The notes: generated from the sequence alone by a model not told the origin. 19,811 bases of DNA from an uncultured bacterium (GCA_938045315.1 CALINM010000187.1:1-19811); one strand, 5' to 3'; positions 12,287-19,811 are shown, counted from the first letter of the stretch. A program made the numbers and translations.

Positions 12287-12729
12287 ATGATGAACAATAT
12301 AAAAAAACAAAATTTATGTAAAATTAGCAAGAAAGAGCCCACTATATTTTTTATCACCCCTTCAGATTCAAGAAAAGAAACATTTTTATTATTTCTATGT
12401 ATAAGCCCTTACGTGGTAAATAGAAATACGTATTATCCTAACCTGCTTGTGACAATTTAACAATTTTCCAAAAGTTAAGTTTTTATGAGGAAAAAAGCTA
12501 TTTAAAAACTTTCAAGATCTGTGGGGTAGATTCTTTTCATACGCATATTTAGAATCTTTTGCAGGAAGATGTATACCAAAAAATTATCGTTTTAAATATG
12601 CATAATGATCCTCACAGAAAAAAGATTCTATACAAATTAAAAATTGAAAGTTTTGTTGAAATAACAGATGCAAAAGGCTACAGTGAGATTTAAGATTTAA
12701 TTAATGGCAATGGGGAATTTCTTTCTTAA
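12287..12729 (+). pseudogene. Probable decayed gene remnant in the 471-bp gap
   Basis: The gap 12262-12732 has no intact long gene. On the plus strand, an ATG at 12287 opens a 57-codon frame (start MMNNIKKQ, later FITPSDSRKETFLLF) to a TAA at 12458. Near there a different frame takes over, open from 12442, and runs to 12727 with only two stops, a TAG at 12550 and a TAA at 12691. The runs between stops are about 36 and 46 codons, long for chance in such A/T-rich DNA, and the translation looks protein-like (for example KIIVLNMHNDPHRKK and ESFVEITDAKGYSEI). One frameshift plus two stops would explain it as a dead gene. I do not recognise the family. It could instead be one or two small genes, or chance. 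Confidence 0.45.
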
Positions 12730-12732
12730 AAA

Positions 12733-13830
12733 TTATTCACACATTTTTGCAAAAAGATGTTCTATATTATTCAGTATTTTTTTGTGGGAAAATTGTCCTT
12801 TTATAAAGCCAACAGTTACTACACCGCCTGCACCTACACCTTCTTTAACCAGCCCTTTCTCATAACCTTTTAATCCTTCCAATACACTATTAGAAAAATT
12901 CAAGTCACAAGCAAAAACAAATTTTAGCTTTTTAATAGAATTTGCAAGCCCTATAAAATCTGCTCTCTCATCATAAGCAACCCATCTTGTTGTAGCAATA
13001 GCAATATTATCCCAATTTGCTTTAACATTTAAAAAATCCTCTAAAACTTCTATAAATGCTGCCACAGCAATCATTTGAGTCCCACCTGCAAGAATCACAG
13101 GATTTTTTTTACTAATAAAAATTGCTAGCACAGCGTTTACAAGCTGCATACTGTCACCAATGCTTTCCACAATTTTCACTGGGTTTTTTTTGATTAATTC
13201 TTTAGAAAGCTTTGCATTTTTATGGGCTAACTTAACAACTTCTTCTTTTAAGTCATGGGCGTTATCGCTCATGCTGCTGCTAACCTTACCAAAAGAATCT
13301 ATTCCTAAAAAAGATAATAAAGAAAGAGCAGTAGTGGTTCCACCTGGCACACTCTCACCAAGAATTATAAACCTATCCAACTTAAGGAGTTCATCTGCTA
13401 AAACCTTTGATTTTTCAACAAGTTCATTCCCCCCATCTTTAAATGCTTCTCCTGTAGTTATACATTTTAGCCCCCTTCCCCTCAAGACAATTGAAGGGAC
13501 AAATGGTTTAGTCTCACATCCAGCATTAATTATAAACACTGGCAATTTCATTAAATCAATAGCAGCCTTAGTTATAATAACAGGAGATGGTGGACCTAAA
13601 GGATTCTTTGGAATTTCTTTAATTGTAAAGGTTTTGCCATAAAAAAGATATTCCACATCAGCTTGAGCTGTATATTTTCTTAGCTCAGGGGTCGCTCCGG
13701 CAGCTGATATGCCAGGTATTTGAGCTGTTTTTGTCGTTGCAATAGTACAAACAAAAATTCCATCTTTTTCTCTAATTTTTTCAAAAAATAACTCACATTT
13801 TTTCTCTTTTAAAATAAATACATTTTTCAT
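12733..13830 (-). CDS. CobT-like nicotinate-nucleotide phosphoribosyltransferase, UPF0284 / TIGR00303 type
   Basis: A 365-residue protein of the archaeal/cyanobacterial CobT-like family, a distant relative of CobT. It shows the family start IPGISAAGATPELRKYTA (38-55), then GESVPGGTTTA at 158-168, which aligns with the nucleotide-binding GxMGIGNTT of classic CobT, KVSSSMSDN at 182-190, an ILAGGTQM segment near 246-253, and KEGVGAGG at 329-336, whose Glu330 matches the catalytic Glu of the LGEGTGA motif. It should transfer phosphoribose from a nicotinate nucleotide to a lower-ligand base. Its exact base and its role beside a normal CobT are open. The ATG at 13830 overlaps the cobC stop (ATGA). 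It is the last gene of the cob operon; no clear terminator follows. Confidence 0.85.
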   Translation of the reverse strand: MKNVFILKEKKCELFFEKIREKDGIFVCTIATTKTAQIPGISAAGATPELRKYTAQADVEYLFYGKTFTIKEIPKNPLGPPSPVIITKAAIDLMKLPVFIINAGCETKPFVPSIVLRGRGLKCITTGEAFKDGGNELVEKSKVLADELLKLDRFIILGESVPGGTTTALSLLSFLGIDSFGKVSSSMSDNAHDLKEEVVKLAHKNAKLSKELIKKNPVKIVESIGDSMQLVNAVLAIFISKKNPVILAGGTQMIAVAAFIEVLEDFLNVKANWDNIAIATTRWVAYDERADFIGLANSIKKLKFVFACDLNFSNSVLEGLKGYEKGLVKEGVGAGGVVTVGFIKGQFSHKKILNNIEHLFAKMCE

Positions 13831-14444
13831 ATTCTCATGCCTGTTGTTAAATTGTGTGCTTTGAGTGTCACATTGCCATCATAAAAAAATCTCAAAACTG
13901 TAAGTGACCCATGATCTATTTCAATCTTAAAAAAGTTTTTTAGTGGTATACCAAGATACGTTAATATTAACACCCTTATTACACCACCATGACCAACATA
14001 TAGAATTTTTCTAAAATTATTACTCTTTAAAAAGCTATCAATGCATCTTTTTACCCTTTTTTGAAGTTGTAAAAGATTTTCACCTTCAGGGAAGGGAACT
14101 TTTACAGGATTTTGAGTCCTTTTAAAAAATTCTTCTTTTTCTTTTTCTATAAGTTCTGAAACTTTTTTTAATTCCCATCTCCCTGCGCTAATTTCCCTGA
14201 GTTCCTTGAAACTCATATGAGGACATTTAAAAATACGAGAATATTTCGAAGCAGGCAAAAATGTCCTTTTTAAATCTGACGATAATACTAAATCTATTTG
14301 CTCATTTTTAAGTATCTTTTTCCACATTATTGTTTCTTTAAACCCTTCCTTAGAAAGGGGGGTATCACTCTGACCATTTAAAATCCCTTCATTACTATTT
14401 ACTAAATGTCCATGTCTTATCATATAAAGAATTTTTTCACTCAT
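13827..14444 (-). CDS. cobC: Alpha-ribazole phosphatase (histidine phosphatase)
   Basis: From the ATG at 14444 it is 205 residues, MSEKILYMIRHGH. The RHG motif has the nucleophile His11, with Arg60 (SSDLKRT), an acid Glu near 84 (LREISAGRWE) and His152 in YVGHGGVIR, the full histidine-phosphatase set. In this operon it should dephosphorylate adenosylcobalamin 5'-phosphate or alpha-ribazole phosphate, completing the nucleotide loop. The frame is open to an ATG at 14465, which would add seven residues inside cobS. The ATG at 14444 is chosen because it forms a standard ATGA overlap with the cobS stop and gives the common family start. It overlaps the next gene by ATGA too. Confidence 0.9.
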   Translation of the reverse strand: MSEKILYMIRHGHLVNSNEGILNGQSDTPLSKEGFKETIMWKKILKNEQIDLVLSSDLKRTFLPASKYSRIFKCPHMSFKELREISAGRWELKKVSELIEKEKEEFFKRTQNPVKVPFPEGENLLQLQKRVKRCIDSFLKSNNFRKILYVGHGGVIRVLILTYLGIPLKNFFKIEIDHGSLTVLRFFYDGNVTLKAHNLTTGMRI

Positions 14445-15163
14445 GATAAAAAAGATCTCCAGCATAAAACATAAATAATTTCAGTAAAAATACAACCCGC
14501 TCCCATTATATCACCTGATATACCACCTAAATATTTATGGGAAAAAACTCTAAATAGGTATGACCAAAAAACTATTAAAAACAAAAGAAATACAAAAATT
14601 TTTCCCAAAAATAAAACCAGTATAAGGGAGGTAACAAAAGAGATAAAAAATTCCTGAATAGTTAAATTTTTAATAAAATAACTTCCCAATCCTTCCTCAA
14701 ACAGTGGTTTTGATAGAAATGTTATTATAACTATAGAAAGCCTACCATACATCCCTAATGCTACAAAATATTGAAAATCAAGTTTAATGTTCAATAAAGC
14801 AAAAAACATGATAGAAAAGTAAAAAATTAGACCGAATACACCCATTACTCCAACTCGGCTGTCTTTTAGAATTTCTTTGAATCTCTCCCTATTTTTTTTA
14901 GAGCCAAAGTAGGCATCAAAAAGATCAGCAAAACCATCTAAATGTAGTCCACCATTTATCATATGATAAATAAAAATTGAAATTACTATAGACACATTAT
15001 GGGGCAAAAAAAGAGTTAGGAAGTGGTAAATTAAATACGTAATTGCTCCAATTATAGCACCAACCAAAGGGAAAAACCTGAATGATTTATAAAAATCATC
15101 AACACCCCTCTGAAAAATTGGTAGGATTGTAAGAAAAGAAAGGGCATTAAAAAAATCTTTCAT
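14441..15163 (-). CDS. cobS: Adenosylcobinamide-GDP ribazoletransferase (cobalamin synthase)
   Basis: A 240-residue polytopic membrane protein that joins adenosylcobinamide-GDP to alpha-ribazole or its phosphate. It carries the family signature GGLHLDGFADLFDA near residues 71-84 (Asp-rich, metal-binding) and, close after, the KDSRVGVMG segment. Hydrophobic segments recur along the chain (about 30-52, 56-70, 104-128, 132-150, 175-205), as expected. The N-terminus ALSFLTILP is typical. The ATG at 15163 overlaps the cobT stop as ATGA, and its own stop overlaps cobC. Confidence 0.95.
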   Translation of the reverse strand: MKDFFNALSFLTILPIFQRGVDDFYKSFRFFPLVGAIIGAITYLIYHFLTLFLPHNVSIVISIFIYHMINGGLHLDGFADLFDAYFGSKKNRERFKEILKDSRVGVMGVFGLIFYFSIMFFALLNIKLDFQYFVALGMYGRLSIVIITFLSKPLFEEGLGSYFIKNLTIQEFFISFVTSLILVLFLGKIFVFLLFLIVFWSYLFRVFSHKYLGGISGDIMGAGCIFTEIIYVLCWRSFLS

Positions 15164-16224
15164 TTTATCTCACGAGAAACACTTGCTTCATCAAAAGTTG
15201 CCATTTCATTAAACATTTTAAGGGAAGCTTCAATAATATTTGAGGCCAGAGCTGCACCTGTACCTTCTCCAAGCCTCATTTTCAAATCTAAAATAGGTTT
15301 TTCCTTCAAAAAATCCAGTATCTTTTTATGACCCGGTTCCACTGATTGATGTGAGAAAAATACATAATCTTTCACAAAGGGGTTTAAAAGATAAGCAAGA
15401 ATAAACCCTGCTGTACATATAAATCCATCTATTAGGACCGGTACTTTATTGACTGCACCACCTAATATAAAGCCACAAATAGCGCCAATTTCTAATCCAC
15501 CAATTTTTTCAAGCATATCCAGAGAATTTTTATTATCAGGATTATTTACTTCTATAGCCTTTTCAACAACTTTTATCTTTTTTTTATAAATTTCATCACT
15601 TATACCCGTACCTCTTCCCACAACTTTGTCTGCATTCTCCTCAGTGAAGACCTTTATTATTGCACTGCTTGCAGTAGTATTTCCTATGCCCATGTCTCCG
15701 GGGATTAATAAATTGTAACCCCTCTTAATAGCTTCTTCTGCACAGTCAATGCCAGCAAAAATTGAATCGATAGCATTATCAAAAGTCATTGCAGGTCCTT
15801 CTGTAAAATCACTTGTCCCTTTCCTAATCTTTTTATTTATTATTTTCTCTCCTTCTGGAAAATCATAATCTACCCCCACATCTACAACAAAGACATCTGC
15901 ATTAACAAGTCTTGCAAAAACACAAATCGCAGCACCACCCTTTAAAAAATTATATACCATTTGATAAGTTACATCCTTTGGATAAGCACTCACACCTTGA
16001 TTTGTTACACCATGATCAGCTGCAAAAACATAAACTGCTTTTTTTAATTTTTCTGGCATCTTACCATCGTAAATGCAAAACAATTTTGCTGAGAATTCTT
16101 CCAATCTACCAAGACTACCAACTGGTTTAGTAAGATTATCAATTCTTTTGAAGGCTTTTTCTTCTAATTTTCCATCAATAGGTGATATTCTTTTTATATA
16201 ATCCAGCAACCTGAGCATTTTCAT
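15160..16224 (-). CDS. cobT: Nicotinate-nucleotide:dimethylbenzimidazole phosphoribosyltransferase
   Basis: A 354-residue classic CobT, which makes alpha-ribazole phosphate from nicotinate mononucleotide and the lower-ligand base. Visible motifs are DNLTKPVGSLGRLE at 29-42, FAADHGV at 67-73, PGDMGIGNTT at 175-184, FSHQSVEPGH at 290-299 and LGEGTGAA at 318-325 with the catalytic Glu320. At 177 it has Asp where the family usually has Glu (GEMGIGNTT). The ATG at 16224 overlaps the cobU stop as ATGA. An ATG two codons later (M3) is an alternative. Confidence 0.95.
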   Translation of the reverse strand: MKMLRLLDYIKRISPIDGKLEEKAFKRIDNLTKPVGSLGRLEEFSAKLFCIYDGKMPEKLKKAVYVFAADHGVTNQGVSAYPKDVTYQMVYNFLKGGAAICVFARLVNADVFVVDVGVDYDFPEGEKIINKKIRKGTSDFTEGPAMTFDNAIDSIFAGIDCAEEAIKRGYNLLIPGDMGIGNTTASSAIIKVFTEENADKVVGRGTGISDEIYKKKIKVVEKAIEVNNPDNKNSLDMLEKIGGLEIGAICGFILGGAVNKVPVLIDGFICTAGFILAYLLNPFVKDYVFFSHQSVEPGHKKILDFLKEKPILDLKMRLGEGTGAALASNIIEASLKMFNEMATFDEASVSREIK

Positions 16225-16727
16225 TTCAATCTAACCTCCAAACCAGAAACAACAAGATAAACTTCCTTAGAAACTTCCTGTATTTTTTGATTAGCCATAC
16301 CTGAAAAATCAATAAATTGCCTTGCTAAAGGATTCTCAGGTATAACACTGAAACCCACTTCATTTGTAACAAGTATAGTATCCTTCTTAAAACTCTTCAA
16401 AGCATCTATAAAAGAGTTTAATTCCCGCTCTCTTTTTTCCACATCATCATAATAGAAGAAAAGGTTATTATACCAGAATGTAAGACAGTCTATCATCACT
16501 ACATCATATTCATTTTTTAAAGCATAAACCAGTTTAAGTGGTTCTTCTAAAGTTTCAAAAAGATCTTTTCTTCTCTCTCTGTGTTTTTTTATTCTCTCTT
16601 CCATTTCCTTATCTGTAATCTGAGCAGTCGCTATATATAGCCTCTTCCCCTCGTATTTTAAAGCCCTTTCTTCCGCTTTTTTACTTTTACCTGACTTTAT
16701 ACCACCTATATATAAAATAACCGACAT
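16221..16727 (-). CDS. cobU: Adenosylcobinamide kinase / adenosylcobinamide-phosphate guanylyltransferase
   Basis: A 168-residue CobU/CobP enzyme that phosphorylates adenosylcobinamide and then transfers GMP to it. The P-loop GGIKSGKS is at 8-15 (Lys where many have Arg), followed by EM..RIKKHRERR with His49, the expected guanylylated histidine, MIDCLTFW and VTNEVGFSVIPENPLAR, and a final NQ-containing helix. Length is normal. Its start (ATG at 16727) overlaps the cobO stop by one base (TAATG). Confidence 0.95.
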   Translation of the reverse strand: MSVILYIGGIKSGKSKKAEERALKYEGKRLYIATAQITDKEMEERIKKHRERRKDLFETLEEPLKLVYALKNEYDVVMIDCLTFWYNNLFFYYDDVEKRERELNSFIDALKSFKKDTILVTNEVGFSVIPENPLARQFIDFSGMANQKIQEVSKEVYLVVSGLEVRLK

Positions 16728-17260
16728 TAGAATTCGATACCCTTTCTTGCTTTAATGCCTCTATTAAATGGATGTTTTATCATTTTCATTTCTGTAACAT
16801 AGTCAGCTATTTCAATAATTTCATCTACTGCATCCCTTCCAGTTATTACAACTTCTAAATTTTCAGGTTTGTTTTTCAAAAAATCCAGAACTTTTTTTGT
16901 ATCAATATAACCATATCTCATACATATATTTAACTCATCAAAAACGGCTAATTCCACATCCTTTTCCTTAATAATTTCTAGAGCTTTATTAAAAGATTCA
17001 TCAACAGACTTTTTTAAATCTTCCATGCTCACGCTTTTATTAAAAAGGGGGGAAGCATTTTCAAATCTAATGTAAATTAATTCTGGGAACAACCTCGCAA
17101 AGGCTTCCATTTCCCCATACTTCGTCTTACTATCCTTCAAAAAAGAAAATATTGCCACACGTTTATTATGCCCTAAAGCCCTTATAACAAGTCCAAAAGC
17201 AGCTGTAGATTTTCCTTTCCCTTCACCGGTATACACATGTATCAATCCACTTGTGCTCAT
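16727..17260 (-). CDS. cobO: Corrinoid adenosyltransferase (CobA/CobO/BtuR type)
   Basis: A 177-residue ATP:cob(I)alamin adenosyltransferase of the CobA/CobO family, which adds the adenosyl group to the cobalt. The P-loop TGEGKGKST is at 11-19. Typical segments follow: AFGLVIRALG, FLKDSKTKYGE, VFDELNICMRYGYI with the Walker B-like Asp/Glu pair, and VVITGRDAVDEIIEIADYVTEMK. The ATG at 17260 overlaps the M16 peptidase stop as ATGA, with GGAG at 8 nt upstream. It heads the cobalamin part of the operon. Confidence 0.95.
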   Translation of the reverse strand: MSTSGLIHVYTGEGKGKSTAAFGLVIRALGHNKRVAIFSFLKDSKTKYGEMEAFARLFPELIYIRFENASPLFNKSVSMEDLKKSVDESFNKALEIIKEKDVELAVFDELNICMRYGYIDTKKVLDFLKNKPENLEVVITGRDAVDEIIEIADYVTEMKMIKHPFNRGIKARKGIEF

Positions 17261-19811
17261 TTTATATCTCCTTTACTTTTACCATGAATAATTACCTTAA
17301 CAATTTTATCTACCTTTATATATTTTTTTGCCAAATCAATCAGATCTTTTTTTTCAACCTGCTTTAAGAATTCCTCATAAACTTTGTGATACATTATATC
17401 ATTGTGTATTAAAGCATTTTGTGATAGCAAAAAAGCATAATCAATATTTGACTGACTTGATTCAATCGAATCTATAATAAGCTTTCTTTTAGCTTTTTCT
17501 AATTCTTCATCGGTAAAACCATATGTTATTATATTTCTCAACTCTTCAATCATTGCATTAACTGCTTTTTCAGTATTTTCTGGGGAAGTGGCTATATAAA
17601 GCGTAAAAAGAGAAGTCTCTGGAAAATTGTATAAAAAAGCACCCAAAGCATAAGCAAGACCCTGATTATCTCTGAGGTTTACAAATAATCTACCACTTTG
17701 ATTTGATAAAATTGTGGATATTAATTGAAAATAAATATTTTCTTTCGAAACCATGCCTGGAACTGGAATACCCATCATTATATGGGTTTGATTAAAATCG
17801 TATGCCTGTGATATATATTTCTGTTGAGGATCAGGTTTTGCAATAATACAATATTTATTGTCTTCTCCTTCTAAATCATCAAATTGCTTAGTTATATAAG
17901 ACATGGCATCAGCCGGGATATTACCTGACAAAACAATAATTGTATTAAAGGGAGAGAATATTCTTCTAAAATGTTTAATTACATCTTCTCTACTAAATTT
18001 TCTAACATTCTCTTCAAGCCCTTCTGTAGGGAGACCCAGTGGTAAATCACCAAACATTGCTTTAAAGTAAAGATCTCTTAATAATCTATTCGGATTTTCT
18101 ATTTTCTTTTTAATATCTAAGAGGATCAATTTTTTTGTCTTTTCTATCTCTTCAAAAGGTGGTTCAAAATTATTGATAATTTCGCCTATTAATGATATTG
18201 CTTCATAAAAATCTTTTGAAAGAAATCTTCCTTTAATACCCGATAAATTTTTCGTAGAAAATCCTGAAAGTGAACCACCCATATTCTCAATTTTTTCAAT
18301 AATCTCTGTATACTTATAATTCTTTGTCCCCCTCAATAAATTAGCCATTGTAAAATTTGAAATTCCTGAAGTATCATTTGTTTCCAACCTTGTTCCCGCT
18401 AAACTGGTAATAGATACACCAAATGTGGGCACATTTGATCTGCGATGTATATAAATTTGAAGACCATTTTTTAGCTTTAAACTCTCTATTTCATTATTTT
18501 TCTGTCCAAAATTTCTTATCAACTCAGAAATTTGTTCCATGTTTGCTTTTTGACTATCTGGAATAACAAAAGAAGCTACTATTTTCTGGGGATTAAAAAA
18601 AAGTGTTCTAACATTACTAATATCATTTACTGTAACTTTGTTGATTTTATCAATATACTTTCTTGAATAATCTGGGTCTTTATAATAGTGAAATGAAATA
18701 CCCATATCAGAAGCCTGCTCATTAATCTTTTCTTTAGAAAAATAATAATTGCTCTCATAATTTCTTATAACTTTTTTTAGTTTGGTCTCATTTATATTCA
18801 ATTCTTCCTTGAACAATAAATTTAGTATCTCATAGGTAGCATCCTTCATATTCTCACAAGATAAATTAGCCTGAACAATGAAAAAACCAAAATCTTTTGT
18901 ATTCATCTGATAGGAATACACATAGCTTACAAGTTGTTTTTCTTCCTTCAGTTTTAAGGTGAGTATTGAATTTGAAGACTCGCCCATTATATATGAAAGA
19001 ACATCAACAGGTGCAACAAACTCACTATAAACATCCACTGTTGGTAAACCCATCATTAAATAACATGAGTTAACTGGCATAGTTTTATATGAAATTTTTG
19101 GCGTGTTATAATTTTCTTGATCTACCTTATAACCTTTTAGTTCACTTATATTTGTGATTTTTTTAGAGAAAATTTCTTTTATCTTTGTTTTTAACTTATT
19201 TTCATCAAAATCACCAACAATCACCAGAAAACTACTATCTGGGTTGTAATACCTTTTGTAAAAGTCTCTTACTTGTTCTATTTTTGCATTTTTAATTGTA
19301 TTTTCATAACCAATAACTGGTCTCCTTGCTGGATGCTTTTCAAAGGCTGTTCCAAAAAAGTTTTGATAAAGCATCCTCTGAGGATTATCATAGCCCCTTT
19401 TCATCTCCTCTAAAATCACTTTTTTTTCCTCTTCAAAACTCTTTTCATCGAGGTTCGTCTCAGCAAAAATGTCGTATAAAACATGAAGTCCAACCTCATA
19501 ATGTTCCATCGGTAAGGTTAAATAATAAACTGTCCTATCGAGAGATGTATATGCGTTAATATCTCCACCTAAATTTTCTATTCTTTTTGCAATATCCTTA
19601 CTCCTGAAGGTTAAATGTTCAAGAAAATGAGCAAACCCCGCCTCCTCATCCAACTCATCAATACTCCCATGCTTAATCCAAAGCTGCATGACAACCAGGG
19701 GGACTAAAGTGTCTTTTTTTAAAATGTATCTAAATCCGTTATCTAATTGGTAAACTTCACTGTGTGCTATATTTAATTTCAGGCAAATTATTGATAGAAA
19801 TAACAAAAAAT
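17257..19811 (-). CDS. M16 family zinc peptidase (insulinase/pitrilysin type), 5' end beyond window
   Basis: About 850 residues are visible, a single-chain protein with two M16 halves. The first half has the inverted zinc motif HFLEH (residues 60-64 counting from a TTG at 19806) and the distal Glu in EEEKKVILEEMKRG near 125-137, so it should be the active protease half. The second half (from about 430, starting LKLKNGLQIYIHRR) has GISNFTMANLLRGT in place of the zinc motif and ends with the SGRLFVNLRDNQGLAYALG segment that closes the active cleft. The N-terminal stretch is the hydrophobic core of a signal peptide ending near AHSE, but lacks a basic start, and the frame is open to the window edge, so the real ATG lies outside. 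The protein is probably exported. Its stop overlaps cobO (ATGA), tying it to the cobalamin operon. Confidence 0.9.
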   Translation of the reverse strand, partial: FLLFLSIICLKLNIAHSEVYQLDNGFRYILKKDTLVPLVVMQLWIKHGSIDELDEEAGFAHFLEHLTFRSKDIAKRIENLGGDINAYTSLDRTVYYLTLPMEHYEVGLHVLYDIFAETNLDEKSFEEEKKVILEEMKRGYDNPQRMLYQNFFGTAFEKHPARRPVIGYENTIKNAKIEQVRDFYKRYYNPDSSFLVIVGDFDENKLKTKIKEIFSKKITNISELKGYKVDQENYNTPKISYKTMPVNSCYLMMGLPTVDVYSEFVAPVDVLSYIMGESSNSILTLKLKEEKQLVSYVYSYQMNTKDFGFFIVQANLSCENMKDATYEILNLLFKEELNINETKLKKVIRNYESNYYFSKEKINEQASDMGISFHYYKDPDYSRKYIDKINKVTVNDISNVRTLFFNPQKIVASFVIPDSQKANMEQISELIRNFGQKNNEIESLKLKNGLQIYIHRRSNVPTFGVSITSLAGTRLETNDTSGISNFTMANLLRGTKNYKYTEIIEKIENMGGSLSGFSTKNLSGIKGRFLSKDFYEAISLIGEIINNFEPPFEEIEKTKKLILLDIKKKIENPNRLLRDLYFKAMFGDLPLGLPTEGLEENVRKFSREDVIKHFRRIFSPFNTIIVLSGNIPADAMSYITKQFDDLEGEDNKYCIIAKPDPQQKYISQAYDFNQTHIMMGIPVPGMVSKENIYFQLISTILSNQSGRLFVNLRDNQGLAYALGAFLYNFPETSLFTLYIATSPENTEKAVNAMIEELRNIITYGFTDEELEKAKRKLIIDSIESSQSNIDYAFLLSQNALIHNDIMYHKVYEEFLKQVEKKDLIDLAKKYIKVDKIVKVIIHGKSKGDIK

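Follow-up and report, generated by a model that had tools for sequence, protein, structure and literature searches.

An archaeal/cyanobacterial-type CobT beside a classic CobT in one bacterial cobalamin operon

CobT, the nicotinate mononucleotide (NaMN):base phosphoribosyltransferase of cobamide synthesis, is known both in a classic form, such as the Salmonella enterica enzyme (SeCobT), and in an archaeal/cyanobacterial class defined by earlier work (reference 11 of PMC9561151). In the Methanocaldococcus jannaschii enzyme (MjCobT, MJ1598), V317 sits at the position of SeCobT E317, and Asp52 has been proposed as the general base (PMC9561151). MjCobT activates adenine and 5-OH-benzimidazole and has been crystallised with the ribotide of 5,6-dimethylbenzimidazole (DMB); its base pocket is lined by residues 40-48, 68-77 and 311-313, with 173-181 adding to the far end (PMC9561151). 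Cyanobacteria are thought to make pseudocobalamin, which carries adenine, and only two of 123 genomes searched had a classic CobT (PMC4850488). Here we describe a 19,811-nucleotide stretch of DNA from an uncultured bacterium (GCA_938045315.1 CALINM010000187.1:1-19811; "the window" denotes this whole stretch), in which one cobalamin operon encodes a CobT of each class: a classic CobT at 15160-16224 and a TIGR00303/UPF0284 protein at 12733-13830. Both open reading frames (ORFs) had been given these coordinates in an earlier sequence-only reading, which left unsaid that they lie on the minus strand.

Profile searches place 12733-13830 in TIGR00303/UPF0284, as that reading had proposed (342.4 bits against a cut-off of 240, E 2.8e-102, profile positions 2-334 of 334), while no match to Pfam was found. 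The nearest solved sequences are P. horikoshii CobT (3u4g) and MJ1598. An AlphaFold2 model built from a 33-sequence alignment (mean predicted local distance difference test score 93, predicted template modelling score 0.94) superposes on M. jannaschii CobT with bound alpha-AMP (6pt8) with a Z of 53.4 and 1.6 Å over 348 residues; against classic CobTs and ArsA, Z is about 24-28. By sequence and fold, membership in the archaeal/cyanobacterial CobT class is settled. MJ1598 residues D52, E150, T156, T240/Q241 and V317 correspond to D58, E159, T165, T251/Q252 and V332 in the window protein. The catalytic Asp (D52), ribose-binding Glu (E150), phosphate-binding Thr (T156) and nicotinate-binding Gln (Q241), with roles taken from PMC9561151, are conserved across all aligned homologues, and no variation at D58, E159, T165 or Q252 is seen in the 33-sequence alignment. 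The pairing of an Asp general base at D58 with a residue other than Glu at V332 is invariant or nearly so among the aligned homologues, and in every other group Ala takes the place of S38, a phosphate contact in MJ1598. With the NaMN-contact residues largely kept, the earlier suggestion that this protein might supply a different donor step finds no support.

The ORF at 15160-16224 is a classic CobT, scoring 448 bits against TIGR03160 (cut-off 319.3, E 2e-134) and 437 bits against Pfam DBI_PRT, and its nearest solved sequence is Thermus CobT. Its LGEGTGA motif holds the Glu equivalent to SeCobT E317, the general base. The claim that both proteins keep the catalytic Glu thus stands for the classic CobT and falls for the UPF0284 protein, in which that position is V332 and the general base is the Asp D58; the Glu of its KEGVGAGG motif is conserved, yet it is not the residue equivalent to SeCobT E317. 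The classic CobT has Asp at the SeCobT E174 position and carries Y80/M88/M175. A phenol-type reading of the latter three residues was rejected, since every bacterial classic CobT drawn from the loci has Y or F at 80 and M at both 88 and 175, as does Thermus CobT. Both proteins are ordinary members of known families, and from their residues both look catalytically intact, by different chemistry.

The operon runs on the minus strand in the order cobA-cobU-cobT-cobS-cobC-cobT (archaeal type), so that the UPF0284 gene lies three genes on from the classic cobT, as described earlier, with cobS and cobC between them. The features are as follows.

12733-13830, minus strand: archaeal/cyanobacterial-type CobT (TIGR00303/UPF0284), 365 aa, by profile, alignment and AlphaFold model.
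13827-14465, minus strand: cobC-like histidine phosphatase; best NCBIfam match TIGR03162, under its cut-off.
14441-15163, minus strand: cobS, adenosylcobinamide-GDP ribazoletransferase (TIGR00317, 127.8 bits against a cut-off of 110).
15160-16224, minus strand: classic CobT (TIGR03160), 354 aa, by profile and LGEGTGA motif.
16221-16727, minus strand: cobU, adenosylcobinamide kinase/guanylyltransferase, by profile search.
16727-17260, minus strand: cobA/cobO, ATP:corrinoid adenosyltransferase, by profile search.
17257-19806, minus strand: long ORF preceding cobA, judged by eye to be an M16-type peptidase; it reaches the contig end.

Start and stop codons overlap or abut between neighbours all along the cob operon, the UPF0284 and cobC-like genes sharing a 4-base overlap, and this layout points to one transcript. 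This tight operon is conserved, with both cobT genes in the same order, in all three genomes sampled from the window phylum (G000, which holds the window, G001 and G002), the co-occurrence that the sequence-only reading had advised looking for in the closest relatives. The pair has therefore been present at least since the ancestor of these three genomes, between two of which (G000 and G002) the UPF0284 protein is 59% identical. Compared with G001, the ratios of nonsynonymous to synonymous substitution (dN/dS) are about 0.10 and 0.06 for the two window cobT genes, with synonymous sites nearly saturated, and these values indicate that both are under similar purifying selection. Public relatives of the poorly known window phylum are metagenome-assembled genomes (MAGs) titled 'Proteobacteria bacterium' SKW176 and SKW305, an isolate series that we take to be of hot-spring origin.

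To place the pairing in a wider setting, 84,980 species genomes were scanned, giving 278 relatives; the best 80 of the 278, which were kept, come from cyanobacteria, many of which carry the UPF0284 type, from archaea and from a set of non-cyanobacterial bacteria. In a 93-row tree, with long branches flagged, the window UPF0284 protein and its phylum mates form a 100/100 clade (here clade C), which joins two further bacterial clades, A and B (94/85), and stands separate from the cyanobacterial and archaeal proteins; its placement as sister to clade B is weak (89/25). A recent gain from archaea or cyanobacteria, raised by the sequence-only reading, is not supported by this separate bacterial position. 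The clade A and B proteins are about 38-46% identical to the window protein, and each clade has its own gene arrangement. In clade A the locus reads cobU-cobS-cobC-rlpA-UPF0284-APH, with the UPF0284 gene inside the cobU-cobS-cobC operon; 12 of the 14 loci include cobamide genes, the remaining two contigs being short, and 13 of the 14 genomes have no classic CobT match, the exception being G083. In clade B the locus reads UPF0284-cobD-cbiB(-birA), and both CobT types are present in 11/11 genomes, the classic CobT lying far away or on another contig, within cobU-T-S-C loci where inspected. The association of arrangement with presence of a classic CobT (1/14 in clade A versus 11/11 in clade B, p 3e-6) is strong but rests on two clades and on few independent events, because clades A, B and C each form one side of a well-supported branch. 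Among the genomes examined, both types in one operon were found only in the window phylum, and in the archaeal genomes searched PF02277 matched only weakly or not at all.

An even sample of 297 genomes was drawn from the phylum of G028, a MAG titled Deltaproteobacteria. TIGR00303 was found in 23 (21 over the cut-off and two fragments) and TIGR03160 in 202; cross-reading the two lists gives 12 genomes with both, 11 with the UPF0284 type only, 190 with the classic type only and 84 with neither. Presence of the UPF0284 type was not significantly associated with absence of classic CobT (12/23 versus 190/274, Fisher p 0.10). The generalisation that the UPF0284 type is mostly the sole CobT is thus too simple, as 12 of its 23 carriers in this sample also have a classic CobT. 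In the order of Motiliproteus, the UPF0284 type occurs in 1 of 244 genomes, and that same genome also has a classic CobT.

Because the clade A gene occupies a cobU-cobS-cobC operon in genomes that mostly have no classic CobT match, the UPF0284 type can probably act as sole CobT, and bacterial UPF0284 proteins are likely to be working CobTs. In the explanation that we favour, the window operon supplies the arm of cobamide synthesis that assembles the nucleotide loop, in which CobA would adenosylate, CobU would activate cobinamide, CobS would join and CobC would dephosphorylate. Two different NaMN:base phosphoribosyltransferases, a classic CobT with a Glu general base and a UPF0284-type CobT with an Asp general base, would each turn NaMN and a base into an alpha-ribotide for one CobS. 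The UPF0284 enzyme would work on adenine or another cell-made purine and the classic CobT on imported benzimidazoles, so that the lower ligand would track whichever base is available. We consider it moderately probable that the operon encodes two working base-activating enzymes with overlapping but unequal base ranges that feed one CobS. What the data show directly is family membership, fold, conserved catalytic residues, a conserved operon, purifying selection and that no known benzimidazole-synthesis genes were found; activity, a division of bases and any physiological benefit are inferred. Retention of both CobTs under similar constraint argues against decay and for different base ranges, and would also be compatible with complete redundancy. 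Different base ranges are plausible from the sequences, and having both types suggests that each may prepare a different base.

The gene content of the window genome, a MAG that is about 92% complete, was tested family by family. It has cbiP (cobyric acid synthase), a cbiB-cbiA-(cbiX-like)-cbiC group in which cbiA is cobyrinate diamide synthase and the CbiX-like ORF is short, and a CbiM-like ORF; this set makes de novo corrin synthesis likely. The best BluB match in the genome reaches 55 bits against a cut-off of 150 and no Bza match was found, both results being provisional in a MAG. A single ThiC homologue, beside a thiE-like ORF, scores as ThiC and falls below the BzaB cut-off; no ThiC was found in G002. 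As no known benzimidazole route was found, the lower ligand is likely to be adenine or another purine or a salvaged benzimidazole, or else a base unknown to us. The proposed role in cobamide remodelling is not supported, as CbiZ had no match in any of the three window-phylum genomes (provisionally, as these are MAGs); CbiZ-independent remodelling would be compatible with this. In G001, a few genes separate the cob operon from an upstream B12-dependent ribonucleotide reductase of the same orientation (NrdJ; L010 14996-17359, minus strand), which places a user of the cofactor close to its makers in this genome.

At the base pocket, the MJ1598 S312 position is Leu in the window phylum, clade B and Motiliproteus, and Tyr or Phe in clade A, cyanobacteria and most archaea; position 45 is Arg in the window, clade B and cyanobacteria, mostly Ile in clade A, and Thr in archaea. 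These differences fit an altered base choice and do not prove it. A more specific proposal, in which one transcript with two CobT classes would let the cell alternate between a purine of its own making and a salvaged benzimidazole as lower ligand, and in which the clade B and C UPF0284 base pocket would be specialised for a base poorly used by classic CobT, is one that we put forward only tentatively. Several observations weigh against the favoured explanation. Leu at 312 is found in Methanomassiliicoccales too, in whose genomes PF02277 matched only weakly and at the UPF0284 gene itself, and the Leu common to clades B and C may reflect common ancestry. In a genome about 92% complete, failure to find BluB, Bza or CbiZ does not prove their absence. 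Both CobT classes are reported to be broad in substrate, so overlap could be complete (PMC9561151), and no biochemical work on a clade A, B or C protein was found in the literature.

That same breadth in substrate (PMC9561151) lends some weight to redundancy, in which both enzymes would make the same alpha-ribotide and the pair would show one CobT class on its way to being replaced by the other. Clade A suggests that class replacement happens, and its member G083 also has a classic CobT. Against a passing stage speaks a pair that has persisted since the ancestor of three genomes, at 59% identity between the UPF0284 proteins of G000 and G002 and with similar constraint on both genes, and that recurs in all 11 clade B genomes, and we regard redundancy as rather unlikely. 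It is improbable that the UPF0284 protein of two-CobT genomes has drifted to another reaction, for example with a different acceptor tied to the aminopropanol arm. The clade B gene does adjoin cobD-cbiB rather than cobU-S-C, and base-pocket position 312 differs in clades B and C; however, the catalytic Asp, ribose-binding Glu, phosphate-binding Thr and nicotinate-binding Gln are all conserved, cobD and cbiB are ordinary cobamide genes, and the window UPF0284 gene follows cobC. Very improbable is a single hetero-oligomeric enzyme of the kind formed by ArsA and ArsB for phenolic bases: although both genes share an operon with overlapping gene ends and Y80/M88/M175 match the substitutions with which SeCobT was crystallised in its p-cresol structures (S80Y/Q88M/L175M; 4kqj), the Ars proteins each belong to the classic type, the MjCobT and SeCobT dimer interfaces lie on roughly opposite sides (PMC9561151), the three residues (with Y or F at 80) are too widespread among the bacterial classic CobTs sampled and in Thermus CobT to mark phenol use, and the two genes are unlinked in clade B.

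Cobamide structure has been predictable for only 58% of cobamide-producing species (PMC6461909). Clade A, non-cyanobacterial bacteria whose apparent sole CobT is of the UPF0284 type, represents a gap in pathway reconstructions that seek only classic CobT. Genomes with two CobTs offer a natural way to test whether the lower ligand is set by CobT class, and in the window phylum the shared operon allows the two genes to be expressed and directly compared. In a literature search of partial coverage, no paper with 'UPF0284' was found and TIGR00303 was absent from the top matches; in the literature covered we did not find the role of the class in non-cyanobacterial bacteria, its three arrangements there or both classes in one operon described, and we make no claim to a first report.

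Several neighbouring features were recorded alongside. In most clade A loci (for example L014 1204-4247), an RlpA-like lipoprotein with DPBB plus SPOR domains lies between cobC and the UPF0284 gene and an APH-type kinase follows, neither with an evident cobamide link. Clade B neighbours comprise a 220-270 aa protein, a methyltransferase, cobD, cbiB and birA; the 220-270 aa protein lies directly upstream of the UPF0284 gene in several genomes (L049 3013-3726, L051 3896-4705, L053 3062-3736, L133) and gave no Pfam match in the two members scanned. A conserved extra partner beside UPF0284 was rejected as a candidate, neither neighbour set being present in the window operon. After the UPF0284 gene of G022, a 668 aa ORF (L034 11039-13045) has a CbiB domain only in its second half; in the related locus L134, tblastn gives a cobD match before cbiB, and the ORF may represent either a fusion of CobD with CbiB or a frame artefact. 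The UPF0284 protein of a contig titled Candidatus Gracilibacteria (L036) falls within a group of Hydrococcus sequences, which most likely reflects contamination of that MAG by cyanobacterial DNA. In the window itself, the M16-type-like ORF overlaps the cobA start, in an order that is the same in G001 and absent in G002, and is probably a transcription neighbour outside cob function. No cobalamin riboswitch was found at the gathering threshold within the window, and the viral contigs searched held no relatives. At 12332-12723, plus strand, lies a decayed gene for a PhnD-like periplasmic binding protein (three pieces in different frames with stops, ~57% identity, E 1e-11), perhaps preceded by a remnant of a carbonic anhydrase-like gene (14 residues, E 0.12); both genes are intact at the corresponding place in G001 (L010 4699-6230).

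Compared with known systems, the window UPF0284 protein shares TIGR00303, fold and catalytic residues with M. jannaschii CobT (MJ1598; 6pt8, 6pu6, 6ptf) and P. horikoshii CobT (3u4g), at about 38-40% identity. It differs from both in its base-loop residues (K75, L78, P80, R51, L327), and its gene shares a bacterial cobU-T-S-C operon with that of a classic CobT. In S. enterica CobT both subunits contribute to the base pocket, which in M. jannaschii CobT is contained in one chain. The window's classic CobT is an ordinary Salmonella/Thermus-type enzyme, and its departures from SeCobT at E174 and at positions 80, 88 and 175 are as in Thermus and unremarkable. The tandem CobT paralogues ArsAB, which serve phenolic bases in Sporomusa ovata, resemble the window in having two CobT homologues in one locus, but the Ars proteins are both classic and encoded by adjacent genes, whereas the window has one classic-type gene, separated by two genes from that of the other class. 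In the Propionibacterium freudenreichii BluB/CobT2 fusion, a CobT is reportedly tied to a particular lower ligand, there through fusion of CobT2 to the DMB synthase BluB, which was not found in the window genome (PMC4657239). The clade A and B UPF0284 proteins are, like the window protein, bacterial and linked to cobamide genes; clade A differs in mostly doing without a classic CobT, and clade B in keeping it at a separate locus.

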